This document shows, in pieces, positions 228 to 44,543 of a stretch of DNA of 46,009 bases. Position 1 is the first letter of the stretch. Each line of letters starts with the position of its first letter. The stretch is from an uncultured Opitutia bacterium (GTDB lineage: Bacteria; Verrucomicrobiota; Verrucomicrobiia; Opitutales; Opitutaceae). Position numbers and translations under genes: made by a program. The DNA lies in assembly GCA_903919985.1 (NCBI GenBank), contig CAIXKG010000030.1, positions 1 to 46,009 of the forward strand, read 5' to 3'. The notes beneath the pieces were generated by a model. The model saw only the letters and a list, made by a program, of their open reading frames with translations, did no database searches and was not told the origin of the DNA.

Positions 228-3200
228 TTACGGCGCAGCGTAGATGTCGGCGAGCGCTTCACCGCCGGCACTGTTCGGAGCCGCGGTGATTTCAAACGTG
301 TAGCCGCCCGGAGCGAGGGTGAGCAACAGCGCCGCATCCTTGCTACCGGCCTCAAGCGCAAATGCTCCCGTGGCCACAGCGGCCGCGGCGACGTCGGTGC
401 CACTCCAGTCGTTGCTCGTCGCGATCAAGCGGCCGGATGCATCGTAAACTTTGAGGACCGGATCCGCGAGGGCGTTCGCCACGTTGAATTTCGTGAGACC
501 GGGACCGACACCGCGGACCAAGACCTTTTGTGTGCCGGAGGCATCGGTGGCGGTGATGACAAAGCCGCCGACCAACGGGCTGCCGGGCGCCACGGGAGCG
601 CGCGCGGAGAGATTGCGGAAACGCGGCGTCAATGTTGTGCCGTTCGCATCGTAGATTTCCGTGAGCAGGGCGCCGCCGCGAGCATCGGCGTTGGTGACGA
701 GTGCCGTATAACCACCGGGGGCGAGGTTGAGCAGCAGCGCTGCATCCTTGCTGTTTGCGGCGAGGGGGAATGCTCCCGTGGCGACGCTGGCCGACGAAAT
801 ATCGGAGCCGCTCCAGTCGTTGTTGGACGTTACGAGCGCTCCGGCGGCATCATAAATCCGCAGCACCGGATCGGTTAGTACACCACTGACGCCGAAGGCG
901 CTTAGACCGGGGCCGATGGCGCGGATGAGTACCGTGCCACCTGTGCTGACGAAGCCGGTGATTGCCGTTCCATTTGTGCCCACTTGGGCGAGGGCTGAAA
1001 GATTGATGAGTCGGATCGACTGGCCGCTGGCTGCACTGCCGGTGCCGCCGATGTTCAAGAGCAACGCGGCGCTCACGTTGCCGCCGGCGTTGGTCGCAGT
1101 AACCACGACATTGTAGGTTCCGGTTTCAGTTGGCGTACCCGTGATGACACCGGTTGCCGCATCGATCTTAAGGCCGGCTGGCAGGCCGGCGGCGGTGTAG
1201 GCGGCGGCTTTTCCGTTGGATGCCGCGTAACGAAAAGCCTGATCGGCAACAGCGCCCACGACTACATCGGTGCCAAATATCGGAGTTTGCGCGAAGTTAA
1301 AGATCTGCTCGCTGCGGACGAGTCCCGCCGAGGTATTTTTCGAGGTCGGCGCTGAGCCCAGAGCGCGAACATAAAACGTGCTGTCGGCCGCCAAGCTGAG
1401 CCCCGTGAGTTGCCAATTTGAAGTAACACCGACGCGCGTCGCGGCGCCGAGCAGAGTCCAGGTAATCGCATCCGTGGAAATTTCAAAACGGGCCGCGGAA
1501 AGTTCCGCCCCTCCACCGGTGCGCGTCCACGTGAGCGTCGTCCGATTCGAGGATGCGCTGATGAGTTGAGCTGCAGCGGCGTTGCCCACCGCGAGGCGAG
1601 CAAGGCGGAAACGGGACTGGCCGGTAACCGCGTTAAAAGCACCGCCGAGCACCACCCCGCCTTCAGGCTGCAAGGCGACGGCGAATACAGATCCGTCGGC
1701 GTTGGGATCGAACGACGCATCGAGACTGCCGTCGGCGTTTAAACGCGCGACGTTGTTACGACCAACGCCCGAAACGCTGGTGAACGTGCCGCCGAGAATG
1801 ATCTTCCCGTCGACCGACGCGACGATCGAGAAGACCGTGCCGTTCACATTCGGGTTGAAACTCGCGTCCACCGAACCGTCGGCATTGAGCCGGGCGAGCC
1901 GGTTACGGGTCTGCCCGCCGAGTGAAGTGAATGAACCAGCCACGACGATCTGCCCGTTGGGACGGAGCAAAAGGGCGTTGATCTGGCCGTTCGCCTGCGG
2001 ATTGAAGCTGGCCTCGATCGAACCGTCGGCGTTGACGCGGGCGAGATTGGAGCGCGCCGTGCCGGTGATCGCAGTAAAGGCGCCGCCGACGACGAGCCTG
2101 CCGTCGGATTGGAGCGCGAGGGCGTTAACGGTGCCGGTGACGTCCGCGTTGAATGTCGCATCCAACACGCCATCGGTCGTGACGCGCGCCAGACGGTTTC
2201 GCGGCAGACCGGCGATGGCCGTGAAGCTGCCGCCGACAATGAGTTTGGTGTCGGGCTGCTGCACAATGGCGTTCACCGCACCGTTGGGATTGGGCGCAAA
2301 TCCGGGCACGGCACTACCGGCTCCGTCCAGCTGAGCCAGATACGCGAGGCTGGTGCCGCCAATGTTTTTGAAATTTCCGCCTACGATCAGATTGGCATCC
2401 GAGGTCAAGCTGGTGAACGAACCGCCCGCCAGCACGCTGCCATCCGCCAGCGAGGCGATGGCGAGAACATCGCCAGCGGGACTCGGATTAAAACCGGTGT
2501 TAAGGGCGCCATCGCTTCCGACCAGGGCGATATGACTGCGCGCTACCGGATAAAAACTACTCCCGGGCTGGAGAGCCGTGAACGTGCCGCCGAGCAGGAT
2601 GGAGCCGTCGGACGAGACGGCGACCGCGCGTACGGCGTTGTTCGGAGACGGATTGAAATTGGAATCGACGCTACCGTTCGTGTTCAAGCGGGCGATGTAA
2701 CTCCGGACGAAGGCGCCGCCGTTGGCCGGTTGAAGGAGGCCAAATGCTCCGCCGATCACGGGCTTATTATCGTAGGACTGCAGCGCGATCGCATAGACCG
2801 CCGCATTGGCATTCGGGTCGAACTCGGTGTCGAGCGTCGCATCGGTATTCAACCGCGCGATGAAATTACGGGTCGTCGCCGTAGTCGCAGAGTTGGGCTG
2901 AAACGAATTAAAGTCGCCACCGACGATCAGTTTTCCATCGGCCGGCTGGATGACTAGGGCGCGAACCAAGGCGCTTGGGGTGGGATTGTAAGCGGTGTCT
3001 AGCGTGCCATCGGTGTTAAGGCGGGCGAGAAAGCTGCGGGCGGTCGTGGTGCTCGCGCCATTGGGTTGAAAGGTGGTGAAGGCGCCACCGACGATGACTT
3101 TTCCGTCGGACTGGATGGCGAGGGCGTAGACCACATCGCCCGCGTAAGGATTATAGCCCGTGTCGACGGACCCATCGGTGTTCAACCGCGCGATCCGGTA

Positions 3201-6110
3201 ACGCGTCGCGCCGCCGACGGAATCGAAACTGCCGCCGATGACGAGTTTACCGTCGGACTGGAGCGCGATGGCGTTGACCTCTCCCGCGGGGCTGGGATTG
3301 AACGTCGGATCGAAGGTACCATCGGTCTTCAGTCGCAGGAGATAATTTCCCGTCGTACCGGCCTTGTTGGTGAAATTACCCGCGACGATTATCTTGCCGT
3401 CAGCCTGCGCCAACACGGCATTGATCTGGCCCGAAAGCTGAGCGACAGCGGAATTCTTGAAGCTCGCGCGCAAGGTGCTGTCGGGGTTGAACCAGGCGAA
3501 AACGTTCGCCGTCGGCACCGATGTCCGCGAGGGCTGCACCAGCACGGTGGAGACCGGTCCGTCGGCGTTCGGCAGGAATGTCGCGTCGGCATCGCCGCCA
3601 GTCCCAAAGCGCGCTAGATTCGAGCTCCTCGATCCAGAAAAATTATTGAAACCGCCCGCCACGATCAGTTTGCCGTCGGACTGGGTCGCCACGACTTCGA
3701 TCGATCCGGCACTTTGCGTGGTCACGCTCGGATCAAAACTCGCGTCGACCGTGCCGTCGCTGTTGAGCCGAACGATGCGGTTGCGAGCCAAGACCAAATC
3801 TTTCCCGGCGGGCTTCAGCGAAGTGAAACCGCCGCCCATGATAATTTTCCCCGATGCAAGATAGACTACGGTCGCCACCTGCCCACCGGCGTTGGGATCG
3901 AAACCAGTATCGACCGTGCCATCAACATTGAGGCGGGCGATGCGATTGCGGATCGCATTTTTGGCGACGTCATCGCCCGGCCGCAGGAACGAGAAAAGTC
4001 CACCGACCAACACCTTGCCGTCGGCTTGCAGTGCCAGTGATGCGACCGTATCACTGGCCCGGGGATTATAGCCCGTGTCGAGTGTGCCGTCCGCATTAAG
4101 CCGGGCAATATAGTAACGAATTACGCCCGCGCCGCCCTTTGGATTAAGCACGACGAAGGATCCGCCGATCACGATTTTGCCGTCCGCCTGTACCACTTGG
4201 GTCAGCACCGCTCCGTTAGGCTGGGGATCGAACGTGGTATCAACCGTACCGTCGGTGTTCAACCGGGCCATATTGGTCCGCGCGACGCCGGTGCCGCCGT
4301 TTGGCGTGAAGCCGTTGAAGCTACCGCCGACCAGAATTTTTTGGTCGCTTTGCAGCGTGATCACGTTCGGCGCGGAGTCCGAGTTGGGATCGAAGGTCGT
4401 GTCGACTGCCCCAGCCGCGGTGAGGCGTGCGAGGTGATTTCGCACGACTGAAGACCCGCCTTCGGGGGATAGCGACGTGAAGGCTCCAGCAAGAAGAATT
4501 TTGCCGTCCGTCTGGATGGCCAGCGAGTTCACCTGGTTGGTGGGTGACGGGTTGAAGGTATTGTCGAGCGATCCATCCGCGTTGAGGCGCGCGAGATAAT
4601 TGCGCGTCACACCGCCAATATTCGTGAACGTGCCGCCGATCAGGATTTTTTGGTCGGACTGGATCCCAATCGTCTGGACCGGGGCGTTGAGCGCGGGACT
4701 AAAGGAACCGTCGACGGTTCCGTCCGTGTTCAGCCGGGCAATATAGTTGCGCGTCAATCCGCCCATGAGCGTGAAAGTGCCGCCGACGACGACCTTCCCG
4801 TCACTTTGCACCGCCTGAACGAGCACCAAGCCGCTGGCGGCCGGATCGAGCGCCGTGTCAGGCGAACCATCAATGTTGAGCCGCGCGACGCGATTGCGGT
4901 TTACCGGCACCGTACCGACGGCGGCCGCTCGCAACTGCGTAAACGCACCACCCACGACCACGCGGCCGTCGGTTTGAAGCGCGATCGCGTTGACGGCGGC
5001 GTTAGACAAAGTCTGAAAGCTGAGGTCCACGGTGCCGTCCGCATTGAGTCGCGCCACGAAGGAACGGCTCACGGTCGCTCCACCATTCGGAACCAGCTGC
5101 GTGAAATTTCCGCCGACGAGCAACCGGCCGTCTGGTTGCAAGGCAAACGCCGAGACTTGGGCGTTCGCATTCGGCGAGTAAAAAGCGTCGAGCGAACCGT
5201 CGGGATTGAGCCGGGCGATGCGGCTGCGCGAAATCGCGGCATCGCTGCCGGTCGGCTGAAGACCGCCGAAATTTCCGCCAAGCAAGATCGCTCCGTCGAC
5301 CTGGACTGCGATGGCCCTAACCGTGTTGTCTGGCTTGGGATCGAACTCCGTATCAACGGTGCCGCTGGGATTCAACCGCGCAAGGTAACGACGCGTAGTC
5401 GCCGAGGAGTCTCCGGCTGGTTGAAACGACGTGAAGCTGCCACCGAGAATGATTTTGCCGTCGCGTTGAACCGCCAGACTCAACACCGCCGCGCTCGCGT
5501 TAGGATCATAAGTAGTATCCAGCGCCCCATTGGCGGAGAGCCGCGCAATACGATTGCGGGTCACGCCGCCGACCGTCGTGAAGGCACCGCCGATCACGAT
5601 CCGGTCATCCGGCAACACGATCAAAGCATACACCTCGGGCGCGAGCCCGCCGGCGAGATCGACGTTGAAAGAGGAATCGACCGTGCCGTCCGTGTTGAGG
5701 CGGGCGATGCGATTGCGCGTCACGCCACCGACACTCGTAAATGCCCCTGCAACGATGATCTTACCCGCATTAGCGCCCGCGGATTGGAGCGCCATGGCGT
5801 AGACCTGACCGTTGGCGTTCGGATTAAAATCGAAATCCAGCGAGCCGTCGGTGTTCACGCGAGCGAGGGCGTTGCGGTCCACATTGTCCGATGCGCCGTT
5901 CGGCCGCAGCGTCGTGAATGAGCCCCCGAGCACAATCTTCCCGTCGCGTTGCGCCAAGGCCACGTTGACCACGCCATTGGCGTTGGGGTCAAAGCCGTCG
6001 CCCGCCGAGGGCTGGTTGAGCTGCCCCAAAAGCGCAGAGCCCAGCGAGGCGAAAATCGTGACGGCGAACAGGCGGACTTGCCAGAGACGGGAAGACAATG
6101 AGAACAACAT
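228..6110 (-). CDS. Giant secreted delta-60 repeat (DUF5122 beta-propeller) protein
   Basis: About 1960 residues. The chosen ATG at 6110 gives a normal signal peptide: Arg-containing n-region, LFAVTIFASLGSALLG core, cleavage near Gln-30. A GTG at 6173 would add 21 residues ahead of it and is less likely. From about residue 15 after cleavage onward there are some 28 delta-60 units, each carrying variants of DGKIVLGGSFT followed by RNRIARLNTDGTVD. Then come a fibronectin-like segment, a putative-Ig (He_PIG) domain with the GLPAGLKIDAATGVITGTP signature, and two ~125-residue copies of a domain containing TDPVLRIYDAAG and SNNDWSG. The delta-60 units are predicted to build beta-propellers. One unit is collapsed near 2370-2440. 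Ligand and function are unknown; no sortase or membrane anchor is visible. No Shine-Dalgarno motif precedes either start. Confidence 0.9.
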   Translation of the reverse strand: MLFSLSSRLWQVRLFAVTIFASLGSALLGQLNQPSAGDGFDPNANGVVNVALAQRDGKIVLGGSFTTLRPNGASDNVDRNALARVNTDGSLDFDFNPNANGQVYAMALQSAGANAGKIIVAGAFTSVGGVTRNRIARLNTDGTVDSSFNVDLAGGLAPEVYALIVLPDDRIVIGGAFTTVGGVTRNRIARLSANGALDTTYDPNASAAVLSLAVQRDGKIILGGSFTSFQPAGDSSATTRRYLARLNPSGTVDTEFDPKPDNTVRAIAVQVDGAILLGGNFGGLQPTGSDAAISRSRIARLNPDGSLDAFYSPNANAQVSAFALQPDGRLLVGGNFTQLVPNGGATVSRSFVARLNADGTVDLSFQTLSNAAVNAIALQTDGRVVVGGAFTQLRAAAVGTVPVNRNRVARLNIDGSPDTALDPAASGLVLVQAVQSDGKVVVGGTFTLMGGLTRNYIARLNTDGTVDGSFSPALNAPVQTIGIQSDQKILIGGTFTNIGGVTRNYLARLNADGSLDNTFNPSPTNQVNSLAIQTDGKILLAGAFTSLSPEGGSSVVRNHLARLTAAGAVDTTFDPNSDSAPNVITLQSDQKILVGGSFNGFTPNGGTGVARTNMARLNTDGTVDTTFDPQPNGAVLTQVVQADGKIVIGGSFVVLNPKGGAGVIRYYIARLNADGTLDTGYNPRASDTVASLALQADGKVLVGGLFSFLRPGDDVAKNAIRNRIARLNVDGTVDTGFDPNAGGQVATVVYLASGKIIMGGGFTSLKPAGKDLVLARNRIVRLNSDGTVDASFDPSVTTQSAGSIEVVATQSDGKLIVAGGFNNFSGSRSSNLARFGTGGDADATFLPNADGPVSTVLVQPSRTSVPTANVFAWFNPDSTLRASFKNSAVAQLSGQINAVLAQADGKIIVAGNFTNKAGTTGNYLLRLKTDGTFDPTFNPSPAGEVNAIALQSDGKLVIGGSFDSVGGATRYRIARLNTDGSVDTGYNPYAGDVVYALAIQSDGKVIVGGAFTTFQPNGASTTTARSFLARLNTDGTLDTAYNPTPSALVRALVIQPADGKLIVGGDFNSFQPNSATTATTRNFIARLNTDATLDTEFDPNANAAVYAIALQSYDNKPVIGGAFGLLQPANGGAFVRSYIARLNTNGSVDSNFNPSPNNAVRAVAVSSDGSILLGGTFTALQPGSSFYPVARSHIALVGSDGALNTGFNPSPAGDVLAIASLADGSVLAGGSFTSLTSDANLIVGGNFKNIGGTSLAYLAQLDGAGSAVPGFAPNPNGAVNAIVQQPDTKLIVGGSFTAIAGLPRNRLARVTTDGVLDATFNADVTGTVNALALQSDGRLVVGGAFTAITGTARSNLARVNADGSIEASFNPQANGQINALLLRPNGQIVVAGSFTSLGGQTRNRLARLNADGSVDASFNPNVNGTVFSIVASVDGKIILGGTFTSVSGVGRNNVARLNADGSLDASFDPNADGSVFAVALQPEGGVVLGGAFNAVTGQSRFRLARLAVGNAAAAQLISASSNRTTLTWTRTGGGAELSAARFEISTDAITWTLLGAATRVGVTSNWQLTGLSLAADSTFYVRALGSAPTSKNTSAGLVRSEQIFNFAQTPIFGTDVVVGAVADQAFRYAASNGKAAAYTAAGLPAGLKIDAATGVITGTPTETGTYNVVVTATNAGGNVSAALLLNIGGTGSAASGQSIRLINLSALAQVGTNGTAITGFVSTGGTVLIRAIGPGLSAFGVSGVLTDPVLRIYDAAGALVTSNNDWSGSDISSASVATGAFPLAANSKDAALLLNLAPGGYTALVTNADARGGALLTEIYDANGTTLTPRFRNLSARAPVAPGSPLVGGFVITATDASGTQKVLVRGVGPGLTKFNVANALADPVLKVYDASGRLIATSNDWSGTDVAAAAVATGAFALEAGSKDAALLLTLAPGGYTFEITAAPNSAGGEALADIYAAP
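1585..6010 (-). repeat. Tandem array of about 28 coding repeats (~150-170 bp unit)
   Basis: This is the DNA that encodes the delta-60 units. Each unit restarts with a codon series for (A)RLNxDGxxD and a GG-S/A-F-T turn. Units vary by short linker insertions such as LQPNGAS, so unit length changes from about 50 to 57 codons. Sequence identity between neighbours is high enough to permit recombination, and the long open frames on the opposite strand here are by-products of the repeat composition rather than genes. Confidence 0.85.
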
Positions 6111-6173
6111 GAGAAAGGTCAGCGGTGGGCGAAAACGGAAAATGGGTCGAAGCCAAGCGACAGCCGCACGCAC

Positions 6174-40578: not shown

Positions 40579-40673
40579 CGCAGTCGTATTAGGCGGTTTG
40601 ACTGCGACCTTGGAAGAGGGTCGGCGTCTTGCCGGCGGACGCTGCGCGTCGCAATGTTTCAGTCTTATTACCC

Positions 40674-41162
40674 ATGAAAAACCTTGGTCTATTCCCCCCT
40701 TACTTTGCGGCAACGCTTTTTCTGGCTCTCGCCCTACGGGCCGCAGAGCCGTCGTCGGCCATGGCTCCGCCCGCGGCGGATGCACCCCGGGCGAATCTTT
40801 CCGCGCGTGACGCGGATCTGTTGAAACGCTTCGATAAAAACGGGGACGGGAAACTCGATGAGGACGAACTCGCCGACGCTCACGAAATCATGCGGGACGA
40901 ACAGATGGCGCGGATGGAAGGCACAGCGCCCGAGGCCCGAGAAAAAATTCTTGAGCGGTTCGACACTAATCGCGACGGCCGTCTGGACGAGGAAGAGCGA
41001 GCCGCGATGCGGAAAGCGCTGGCTGAGGGGCAGGCGGCGTTTCGGGCACGGCTGATGGAACGCTTCGACCTCAACCACGACGGCAAACTCGATCCCGCCG
41101 AGCGTGTGGCGGCGCGGCAGGTGTTCGATGATTTTCTGAATAGCTTTGACCAGAAAAAATGA
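40674..41162 (+). CDS. Secreted EF-hand protein
   Basis: 162 residues from ATG 40674 (an in-frame TTG at 40629 is rejected). The N-terminus is a signal peptide ending near Ala-24. Three calcium loops are present at about 54-65 (DKNGDGKLDEDE), 97-108 (DTNRDGRLDEEE) and 132-143 (DLNHDGKLDPAE), each with the Dx[ND]xDG pattern and a final Glu. It probably binds calcium outside the cytoplasm. It diverges from the RelE-like gene and lies 121 bases before the ABC importer; any functional link is unproven. Confidence 0.9.
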   Translation: MKNLGLFPPYFAATLFLALALRAAEPSSAMAPPAADAPRANLSARDADLLKRFDKNGDGKLDEDELADAHEIMRDEQMARMEGTAPEAREKILERFDTNRDGRLDEEERAAMRKALAEGQAAFRARLMERFDLNHDGKLDPAERVAARQVFDDFLNSFDQKK

Positions 41163-41283: not shown

Positions 41284-43620
41284 ATGAGGCCACATCTCCG
41301 TCTCTATCTTTCAATCGTGGGTCTGATGCTCGGATTGACCTTTGCCCGCGCGACCGAAATCGACATCCCCGTCGTTTTTGGTGGCTACGGAATCGCTTTT
41401 TACGAGGAAACCGCGCGCCAGTTCGAAGCCCTCCGGCCCGGCGTGACGGTGAAACTCTATGGTGACCCGCGCATCACGGATAAACTTCGGGTCCGGATCA
41501 TCGATGGCGATTTGCCCGACGCCACTTTGCCCCGCGATCTGCTCGTCCCGGCCCTGGTGCATGCCGGAAAACTTCGCGATCTAACGCCCTGGCTCGATGG
41601 GCCCAATTGGGAGGGCGACGCCCGTTGGCGGGATACTTTTCTCCCGGGTGCGCTCGAATCCTGGGTGGTCGATGGCAAACCCTACGGGCTGCCGTTCACC
41701 TACGCGTGCTGGAGTATTTTCTACAACCGCGGGCTTTTTCAGGCGCACGGCTGGAAGGAGCCGCGCACGTGGGATGAATTTTTTGCGCTCTGCGAAAAAA
41801 TCAAAGTGACGGGCGTCGCGCCTCTCAGTCTCACCGGAATTTATTGGAAATATCCGAACGCGTTCTTGCGCTCGGCCTTCTTCAACTTGGGGGGCCCCGC
41901 GGCGTGGAACGCGGTCGGCGAGCTCGCGCCGGGAGCTTACGCGGATCCACGTTATGCGCGTGCGGCCGACGTGTTGCAGCGCATCGCGCAGAACTACACG
42001 CTGCGCGGTTGGGAAGGCGCCACGCACACGACGGCGCAGCTGGCGTTCCTCGAAGGGCGCTCGGCCATGACCGTCTCGGGTTCGTGGATGATTCACGAGA
42101 TGGAAGGAAAAATCCCGGCCGATTTTGACGTCGGTGTGATGAATTTCCCGGTATTTCCGGAGGGCGCAGCCGCCGCGGCTACGATCCAGGCGAGCGCCGA
42201 TTGTTTTTTTCTTTTTTCGACCGGCGATCCGGCGCGGGAAAAACTCACGGTCGATTTTCTGCGCTTCCTGACTTCACGCAGCCGGGCGGCAGCTTTTGTG
42301 CGGGCGGTGGATTCGCCGGTGGCCATGCGCGGCGTGCCAGTGGAGGCGTTTTCGCCGCGCATGCGTTCAACGGCCGAACTCATCGCGGGGGCGAGCGCCG
42401 CGTTCAACATGCCGCAGGTCATGTTGCAGACCCCGACCGTGCGACAGACGCAGATCGACGCGCATATGGAATTGATGACGGGTCAAATTACGCCGACGCA
42501 GTACGGGGCCCGGCTCGAATCGGCCGCCGCGACCGATCGCGCGCACGCGGACCGACCCGACGACATCGACTACCGGCATCCACTTGCCGGGACGGTGTTG
42601 TTGCTCGCGTTGGCGGGATTTGGAGGGTGGCTGCTTTGGCAAAAAATCGGTCAGTTTAGAAAGAACGTGCGTCATCAGGCTGAAAGGAAGTCCGTCGTGG
42701 CCGAGATGAGAGCCGGTTTTTTCGGACGGCTCCGTGGGCCGGTGGCGGTGGGATTCGTCGGGCCCGCGTTTTTGCTCTACGCTGCGCTGGTACTCGCGCC
42801 CGGGATCGCGGCATTCGCCTGGGCGTTTACGCGGTGGGATGGACTCGGTCCGCGGACGTGGTCCGGCGCCTTCAATTTCAAATGGCTCCTCTTCGAGAGC
42901 GATCTGTTCTGGTTCGCGCTGAAAAATAACCTCTATCTGATGGTTGTGCCTGCGCTCGTCGTGTTGCCGCTTGCGCTGCTGTTCGCGTATTTGCTGCATC
43001 GCGGCGTGTGGGGCGCGCGGGTGTTTCGCGCGGTGTTTTTGTTTCCCAATCTCATCGGTGGGATCGCGGCGACCTTGCTATGGATGAGTGCCTATGAACC
43101 GCATGGCGGTTTGGTTAATGCGGGCTTGGTGGCGCTCGGCAATGTGCTCGGCAGCGACTGGCTGCGCGGTTTCGACGGCTATCCCTGGCTCGCGCAACGC
43201 CACCTCTATGGTGCACTTATTCCCATCTATGTCTGGATGGCGTGTGGCTTTAATTTGATTCTCTATCTCGCGGCGATGGAGGGCATCGACTCGCAGTTGT
43301 ACGAGGCGGCTGATCTCGACGGAGCGTCGGCGGGACGGCAGTTTTTCATGATCACGCTGCCCTTGATTTGGGAGGTCGTGGTGATTTCCGCGGTGTTCAT
43401 CGTGATCGGTGGACTCAATGCATTTGAGATGATCTGGCTGCTCACGTCGCAGGACCCCGACAGCAGCACGCACACGCTCGGCACGCTGATGGTGACCTCG
43501 ATGTTCAAGGAATTCCAAGTCGGCCGGGCGACCGCGATCGCGGTCGCGCTGTTTGGGCTCGTGCTAGCCGGCAGCGCCGCGGTGATGCGCGGACTCAAAC
43601 GGGAAAACGTCGAACACTGA
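41284..43620 (+). CDS. Fused sugar ABC importer: solute-binding protein plus MalF-type permease
   Basis: 778 residues from ATG 41284. Residues 1-23 are a signal sequence. Residues 25-420 form a family 1 extracellular solute-binding protein (FGGYGIAFYEETARQFEAL, GLPFTYACWSIFYNRGLFQ, FLEGRSAMTVSGSWMIHEM). A single membrane segment (435-453) and a charged stretch follow, then a MalF/UgpA-type permease (485-775) with the ABC coupling motif EAADLDGASAGRQFFMITLP at 674-693. In most importers these are two proteins. The next gene is the partner MalG-type permease. No ATPase gene is nearby, so a shared ATPase probably serves it. No frameshift or stop separates the parts. Confidence 0.92.
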   Translation: MRPHLRLYLSIVGLMLGLTFARATEIDIPVVFGGYGIAFYEETARQFEALRPGVTVKLYGDPRITDKLRVRIIDGDLPDATLPRDLLVPALVHAGKLRDLTPWLDGPNWEGDARWRDTFLPGALESWVVDGKPYGLPFTYACWSIFYNRGLFQAHGWKEPRTWDEFFALCEKIKVTGVAPLSLTGIYWKYPNAFLRSAFFNLGGPAAWNAVGELAPGAYADPRYARAADVLQRIAQNYTLRGWEGATHTTAQLAFLEGRSAMTVSGSWMIHEMEGKIPADFDVGVMNFPVFPEGAAAAATIQASADCFFLFSTGDPAREKLTVDFLRFLTSRSRAAAFVRAVDSPVAMRGVPVEAFSPRMRSTAELIAGASAAFNMPQVMLQTPTVRQTQIDAHMELMTGQITPTQYGARLESAAATDRAHADRPDDIDYRHPLAGTVLLLALAGFGGWLLWQKIGQFRKNVRHQAERKSVVAEMRAGFFGRLRGPVAVGFVGPAFLLYAALVLAPGIAAFAWAFTRWDGLGPRTWSGAFNFKWLLFESDLFWFALKNNLYLMVVPALVVLPLALLFAYLLHRGVWGARVFRAVFLFPNLIGGIAATLLWMSAYEPHGGLVNAGLVALGNVLGSDWLRGFDGYPWLAQRHLYGALIPIYVWMACGFNLILYLAAMEGIDSQLYEAADLDGASAGRQFFMITLPLIWEVVVISAVFIVIGGLNAFEMIWLLTSQDPDSSTHTLGTLMVTSMFKEFQVGRATAIAVALFGLVLAGSAAVMRGLKRENVEH

Positions 43621-43643
43621 GCTTGAATTTTGCGCGTCTGCGA

Positions 43644-44543
43644 ATGCCCCTCAATCATCCACACTCCGAAGGTCGCAGCGCCGAAGCTCGGTCGGGCTTT
43701 CGTGTTCCGCTTTCACGAACGCTCATTTTCACGGGGTTGATGGGATATGCCGCGTGGGTCGTGTTGCCGATGGTGTGGGTGGCCTACTCCTCGCTCAAAG
43801 CGGATGCGGCGATCTTTCGGGATGCGTTCGCTTTGCCGCGGCCCGGAGAGATGCATCCGGAAAACTATCTGCGGGCCTGGCGCGAGGCCCATTTCAGCGA
43901 CTATTTTTTGAACAGCGTGATCGTTACGACGGCATCCGTGGCGCTCATCGTAATGCTCGGCGCGATGGCTGCCTATGCGCTGGCCCGGTTTTATCATCCG
44001 CTCGGGAAATTTGTCTTTTGGCTTTTTCTCGCCGGATTGATGGTTCCGGCCCAGCTCGCGGTGGTGCCGTTGTTTTTCGAGTTACGAGCCGCGGGCTTGC
44101 TCAACTCCAAGGCGGGATTGGTTCTGGTCTACACGGCCAATGGCCTCCCGTTTGCGATTTTTATTCTCGCCGGTTTTTTTCGTTCGTTGCCGCGTTCGCT
44201 CTATGAAGCGGCGGTCATCGACGGATGTACGGAATGGACGGCCTTTTTCCGCGTGCTGTTGCCGCTGGCGAAACCCGGACTCATGACGGTCGCAATTTTC
44301 CAGTTCATCGGGGTGTGGAAGGAATATTTTTTTGCGTTCATGCTGACGGGCGGCGACCTCGATGGATCCGCTCGCACGCTGCCGCTCGGCCTCGCGAATC
44401 TTTCGATCACCGCCCAATACAAAACGGACTACGGCATGCTGTTCGCGGGAATCATGCTGGTGACGATTCCGCTCCTGCTCGTTTATGTGGCGCTGCAACG
44501 GCACATCGTGAAAGGCGTGGCGGCCGGCGCCCTCAAAGGCTGA
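43644..44543 (+). CDS. Sugar ABC importer permease, MalG/UgpE type
   Basis: 299 residues from ATG 43644; a TTG 21 bases upstream is possible but unneeded. Six hydrophobic segments and the coupling motif EAAVIDGCTEWTAFFRVLLP are typical of MalG-type permeases. It starts 23 bases after the stop of the fused binding-protein/permease and completes the inner membrane channel. A substrate cannot be named; the family mainly carries oligosaccharides or glycerol phosphate. No terminator is visible in the 300 bases behind it. Confidence 0.93.
   Translation: MPLNHPHSEGRSAEARSGFRVPLSRTLIFTGLMGYAAWVVLPMVWVAYSSLKADAAIFRDAFALPRPGEMHPENYLRAWREAHFSDYFLNSVIVTTASVALIVMLGAMAAYALARFYHPLGKFVFWLFLAGLMVPAQLAVVPLFFELRAAGLLNSKAGLVLVYTANGLPFAIFILAGFFRSLPRSLYEAAVIDGCTEWTAFFRVLLPLAKPGLMTVAIFQFIGVWKEYFFAFMLTGGDLDGSARTLPLGLANLSITAQYKTDYGMLFAGIMLVTIPLLLVYVALQRHIVKGVAAGALKG

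Follow-up and report, generated by a model that had tools for sequence, protein, structure and literature searches.

A substrate-binding protein fused to a MalF-type permease in a putative CUT1-type sugar importer of Opitutaceae-like Verrucomicrobiota

Sugar importers of the CUT1 type normally keep their binding protein and permease as separate chains, and tethered binding domains have been best studied in homodimeric importers. MMSYN1_0195 (NCBIfam NF043073), which we liken by its NCBIfam name alone, also holds a permease and a binding protein in one chain, and differs in taking up spermidine/putrescine rather than sugar. In OpuA of Lactococcus lactis, an importer of glycine betaine, the binding domains are attached through an anchoring helix in the membrane and a linker of 11 residues, which restrict each domain to a small volume over the permease, and the complex has two such tethered domains (PMC11065425). 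In GlnPQ, the linker to the permease is 19 residues long (PMC8025302). Tethering itself is known from OpuA and GlnPQ; here it is seen in a probable sugar importer.

The window that we analyzed is a stretch of 46,009 nucleotides from an uncultured Opitutia bacterium (GCA_903919985.1, contig CAIXKG010000030.1). Positions 41284..43620 (+) form one uninterrupted open reading frame (ORF) of 778 codons with an ATG start, encoding a CUT1 substrate-binding protein fused to a MalF-type permease. Pfam places SBP_bac_1 at residues 39-331 (E 6.6e-26; 92.4 bits, cut-off 26) and BPD_transp_1 at residues 561-761 (E 2.5e-8); each match exceeds its curated cut-off. The nearest NCBIfam models are NgcE for the binding half and UgpA for the permease half, and the leading models are identical across all 40 aligned orthologs. 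Like OpuA, the protein has a binding domain covalently tethered by an anchor helix and a short linker (nine residues, compared with 11 in OpuA), as seen in the ORF, the alignment, and the structure model; unlike OpuA, it belongs to a MalF and MalG pair, carries the domain on MalF only and N-terminal to the permease core, and probably falls into a different substrate class. It shares with the amino-acid importer GlnPQ the fusion of binding domain and permease, whereas GlnPQ is a homodimer with two tandem domains per chain and four sites per complex. The homodimeric permease of both those systems is replaced here by the fused chain and a distinct, conserved malG downstream. The permease fold, the SBP_bac_1 domain, and the candidate MsiK/UgpC-like ATPase instead resemble those of the CUT1 importers LpqY-SugABC, NgcEFG-MsiK, and MalEFGK2, whose binding protein is a separate chain rather than part of MalF. 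Specifically, we found an SBP_bac_1-class binding protein and two distinct permeases, of the MalF and MalG types, both with EAA motifs, and judged by sequence, the system matches the CUT1 class in all but the separate binding-protein chain.

The fused gene occurs in 83 of the 252 genomes of the window's family (Opitutaceae-like), 69 of which, including the single-contig genomes G105, G160, and G042, hold it as one full-length, uninterrupted frame; four more listed family genomes match the permease half only. In a sample of 388 Verrucomicrobiota genomes, all 13 carriers belonged to this family, and none was found in the rest of the sample. A peptide-pattern scan of 84,980 species' genomes, which detects close relatives only, returned the fusion from records named Opitutaceae or Verrucomicrobia and from Eremiobacterota, along with a two-ORF relative in Cohnella. 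The Eremiobacterota orthologs, which share ~37% identity with the window protein, came from a phylum in which 6 of 149 genomes carry the fusion, all of them 7.7-8.4 Mb in size. Among 249 genomes of Bacillota, the phylum of Cohnella, there were separate binding-protein and permease genes only and no fused gene; one long match (G858) was discarded because it crosses stops. Likewise, the best plasmid matches seemed to be in one piece, and those examined proved to be two separate ORFs. The preliminary description of this locus had raised the prospect of a missed stop or frameshift between the parts, which the continuous frame in the 69 same-family genomes rules out, and of a common occurrence, which holds only in part: the architecture is common inside the Opitutaceae-like family and present in one Eremiobacterota clade, but absent from the remaining Verrucomicrobiota sample and from the Bacillota genomes. 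Its view that sugar-importer fusions are rarely described agrees with the literature, in which a search that missed most subscription papers found no binding-protein/MalF fusion in a sugar importer. In one complete genome (G106:C1:3721667-3725313; loci L092 and L093), an insert of ~1.3 kb splits the fused gene near codon 644; it bears an IS3-like transposase, named by eye from sequence, on the opposite strand.

The fusion is old. Trees of the two halves, which are quick and have long branches, each contain a branch with every one of the 25 fused rows on the same side (SH-aLRT 95 for the binding half and 99 for the MalF half). Since both trees group all of the fused rows, a single fusion event fits, and a single origin is favored, although not proven, by these phylogenies. 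Further, that the fusion occurs in two distant phyla yet is missing from all other Verrucomicrobiota sampled suggests that it may have been transferred between lineages.

The two halves are connected by a joint whose parts can be delimited in several ways. The chain opens with a predicted signal peptide (41284..41355, +; residues 1-24) that ends in an A-R-A type site, and 39 of the 40 aligned proteins have an AxA-like signal-peptidase motif, defined by a loose pattern, before the start of the mature chain. After the binding domain comes a linker of nine residues (42553..42579, +; residues 424-432), a coil between helices 404-423 and 433-471 of the AlphaFold2 model, which is followed by an extra transmembrane anchor (42580..42642, +; residues 433-453) at a hydropathy peak and by a positively charged loop of variable length (42643..42729, +; residues 454-482) that is presumably cytoplasmic. 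The binding-protein match of separate-gene relatives stops near query residue 411-424 and their MalF match begins near residue 459-513, mostly 475-490, so that the added joint comprises roughly residues 425-482. A hydrophobic stretch is found at the joint in all 40 aligned fused proteins (15-residue hydropathy ≥1.79), and the loop after the anchor has a net charge of +2 to +8 in all 40. Mean identity to other Verrucomicrobiota orthologs, by contrast, is 62% for the binding domain, 49% for the linker, 44% for the anchor, 16% for the loop, and 75% for the permease; the joint conserves its character, not its sequence. Given a hydrophobic anchor and a net positive loop, the positive-inside rule would place the binding domain on the outer and the loop on the inner side of the membrane, which points to a topology with a periplasmic binding domain and an anchor helix running from out to in.

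The permease core, with six helices (42730..43617, +; residues 483-778), is of the MalF/SugA type and aligns with SugA (8ja7_A) at Z 20.6 over 274 residues. When folded alone, the C-terminal part aligns from residue 481 on with SugA and Escherichia coli MalF (Z 17-19), and the anchor helix is not part of the alignment to solved SugA chains. The EAA loop (YEAADLDGASAGRQFFMITLPL; 43300..43365, +), the presumed docking site of the ATPase, contains residues A675, A676, G680, Q686, F687, and P693, which are invariant in the alignment. AlphaFold2, run on the fused chain as a single chain with a 40-row alignment, gave a mean pLDDT of 87.8 and a pTM of 0.84, with the lowest pLDDT at residues 474-480, within the charged loop. 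These results uphold the main structural statements of the preliminary description, namely that one 778-residue chain holds both parts (the ORF and its two Pfam domains), that an extra membrane segment lies between them (a hydropathy peak at residues 434-452 and a single modeled helix at 433-471), and that the permease half is of the MalF type (the SugA and MalF fold matches).

A partner permease of the MalG type (43623..44543, +; 306 aa with a TTG start, with an in-frame ATG at 43644; Pfam BPD_transp_1, E 1.8e-20) begins a few bases at most from the stop codon of the window's fused gene. The malG beside the fusion is retained at 62-88% identity in Opitutaceae-like loci and at ~46% in Eremiobacterota, and it adjoins the fusion in every locus with enough sequence except in four genomes of genus g49. 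In that genus, a Mur-ligase (Mpl-like) gene directly follows the fusion (L034, L035, L047, and L077-L080), and malG has been relocated yet kept, at 74-75% identity. That malG was retained although it had become separated argues for a functional pair, with the fused chain and MalG as its two members. The relocated malG lies near an apparent MlaE/MlaD-type lipid-transport cluster, named by eye from sequence. Other neighbors of the fusion, namely dnaN, a CDP-alcohol phosphatidyltransferase gene, and a gene for an EF-hand protein, are unrelated to sugars. The EF-hand protein, small, secreted-looking, and with several EF hands, is encoded just upstream of the fusion in the window (40629-41162, +), and related ORFs occupy the same place in three other loci (L041, L043, and L045). 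The window also contains a very long frame (228-6173, -), open for 1981 codons.

The fusion has no adjacent ATPase gene. The window's genome encodes a stand-alone ATPase (G000:C41:15861-16967) that reaches 475 bits with the UgpC model, above the cut-off of 432, and relatives of it, counted at E up to 1e-120, are present in 77 of the 83 fusion carriers versus 56 of the 169 other family genomes (Fisher p 5e-21, with shared ancestry ignored), a co-occurrence that is inflated by common ancestry and by other importers possibly sharing the same ATPase. The six carriers without a match at this threshold are drafts, with a completeness of ≤92% where listed. In the window's genus, the only two fusion carriers are also the only two genomes with the ATPase, and ten or more have neither, and a 90-residue piece of the ATPase found a close relative in two of the three Eremiobacterota carriers queried. 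Based on this score and co-occurrence, an orphan MsiK/UgpC-like ATPase likely energizes the fused importer. Directly upstream of the orphan ATPase in locus L075 (4583-7600, +) is a 1005-aa ORF that appears by eye to be TonB-dependent-receptor-like and whose signal peptide is followed by an EF-hand-like stretch.

The sugar-binding domain (41356..42552, +; residues 25-423) matches the fold of BxlE with a Z of 42.3 and an rmsd of 2.4 across 381 residues and that of NagB2 with a Z of 40.3, in structural alignments that span residues 24-421. Since proteins that bind xylobiose, chitobiose, lacto-N-biose, and raffinose have a similar fold, the substrate is probably a di- or oligosaccharide. The model for NgcE, the N-acetylglucosamine/chitobiose-binding protein (TIGR03851), scores 206.8 bits, below its cut-off of 399.65. 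NagB2 contacts its sugar through W217, Y276, W296, and D408 (PMC8233162). In an alignment at 20-25% identity, W217 maps to W188, which is variable, Y276 to H248, and D408 to Q377, with W296, mapped to W268, the sole invariant residue among the four. Because most of these contacts differ, chitobiose should not be assumed, and the mapping lends no support to it as the specificity. We found no sugar genes that might serve as a clue to the substrate among the neighbors in the Opitutaceae-like loci or among the scanned Eremiobacterota neighbors. The nearest separate-gene relative, that in Cohnella, is too distant for its substrate to be transferred; it adjoins an apparent alpha-mannosidase and a ROK kinase, both named by eye from sequence. 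The window's genome yielded just two SBP_bac_1 proteins, of which only the fused one is a strong match.

We propose, with a probability of about 0.8, that this locus encodes a CUT1-type importer, akin to MalFGK2 and SugABC, whose MalF subunit has permanently acquired the sugar-binding protein as a tethered domain. The fused chain would be exported with a cleavable signal peptide, and its binding domain would fold in the periplasm, held by the nine-residue linker on the extra out-to-in helix, after which the chain would pass through the usual six permease helices and pair with the MalG encoded just downstream. The EAA loops of the two permeases would dock two copies of the orphan ATPase encoded elsewhere, and the tethered domain, at a high local concentration above the pore, would replace the diffusion of a free periplasmic binding protein. 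Signal-peptide cleavage, complex formation, the identity of the ATPase, and sugar transport are steps that we infer. With MalF and MalG as distinct chains, a single tethered binding domain would be expected per complex.

Other readings of the fused chain have to be weighed against this proposal. The window's source genome is a fragmented draft (213 contigs, 79% complete), as would suit an assembly error, missed stop, or frameshift that joins two genes, but the same unbroken frame recurs in the 69 same-family genomes, single-contig ones among them, and independently in Eremiobacterota; given so many continuous orthologs, we reject this reading, and the fusion of binding protein and permease is genuine. 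One chain might also be made and then cut in the periplasm, leaving the binding protein free to function in the ordinary way and the anchor as a mere substitute for the permease's start signal. Proteolysis is compatible with the sequence, and the linker (49%) and anchor (44%) are less conserved than the domains (62% and 75%). Nevertheless, separate-gene relatives manage without such a device, the fusion persists in two phyla with a linker that is short in both, and the anchor retains its hydrophobicity in 40 of 40 proteins, and we regard such a cut as unlikely.

A chain that stays whole might still keep its signal peptide, with the binding domain fixed between an N-terminal anchor at one end and helix 433-453 at the other. 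The hydrophobic N-terminal helix at residues 2-20 of the AlphaFold2 model would suit this arrangement, but the AxA-like motif, under the loose pattern used, recurs in 39 of 40 orthologs and makes it improbable. It is very unlikely, in turn, that the fused protein no longer imports sugar and has become a sensor or is degenerate: the permease core and the EAA loop are highly conserved, and malG and the ATPase have been retained, even if there is no linked catabolic gene, the neighbors of the locus are unrelated to sugars, and the gene is broken by the IS3-like-transposase insert in G106.

For the tethered CUT1-type importer that we prefer, the consequences concern stoichiometry. The two or four domains per complex of homodimeric importers confuse docking and cooperativity, whereas a heteromeric importer with one tethered domain would fix a 1:1 stoichiometry, so that docking, turnover, and transport could be measured without free binding protein. 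If true, it would be a naturally occurring 1:1 system with which to examine the contribution of a free binding protein. We lean toward the view that this is a lineage of heteromeric sugar importers in which a free, excess binding protein was given up for exactly one permanently tethered domain per transporter. An environmental bacterial family may thus take up sugar via a design that automatic annotation can easily name by one half only.
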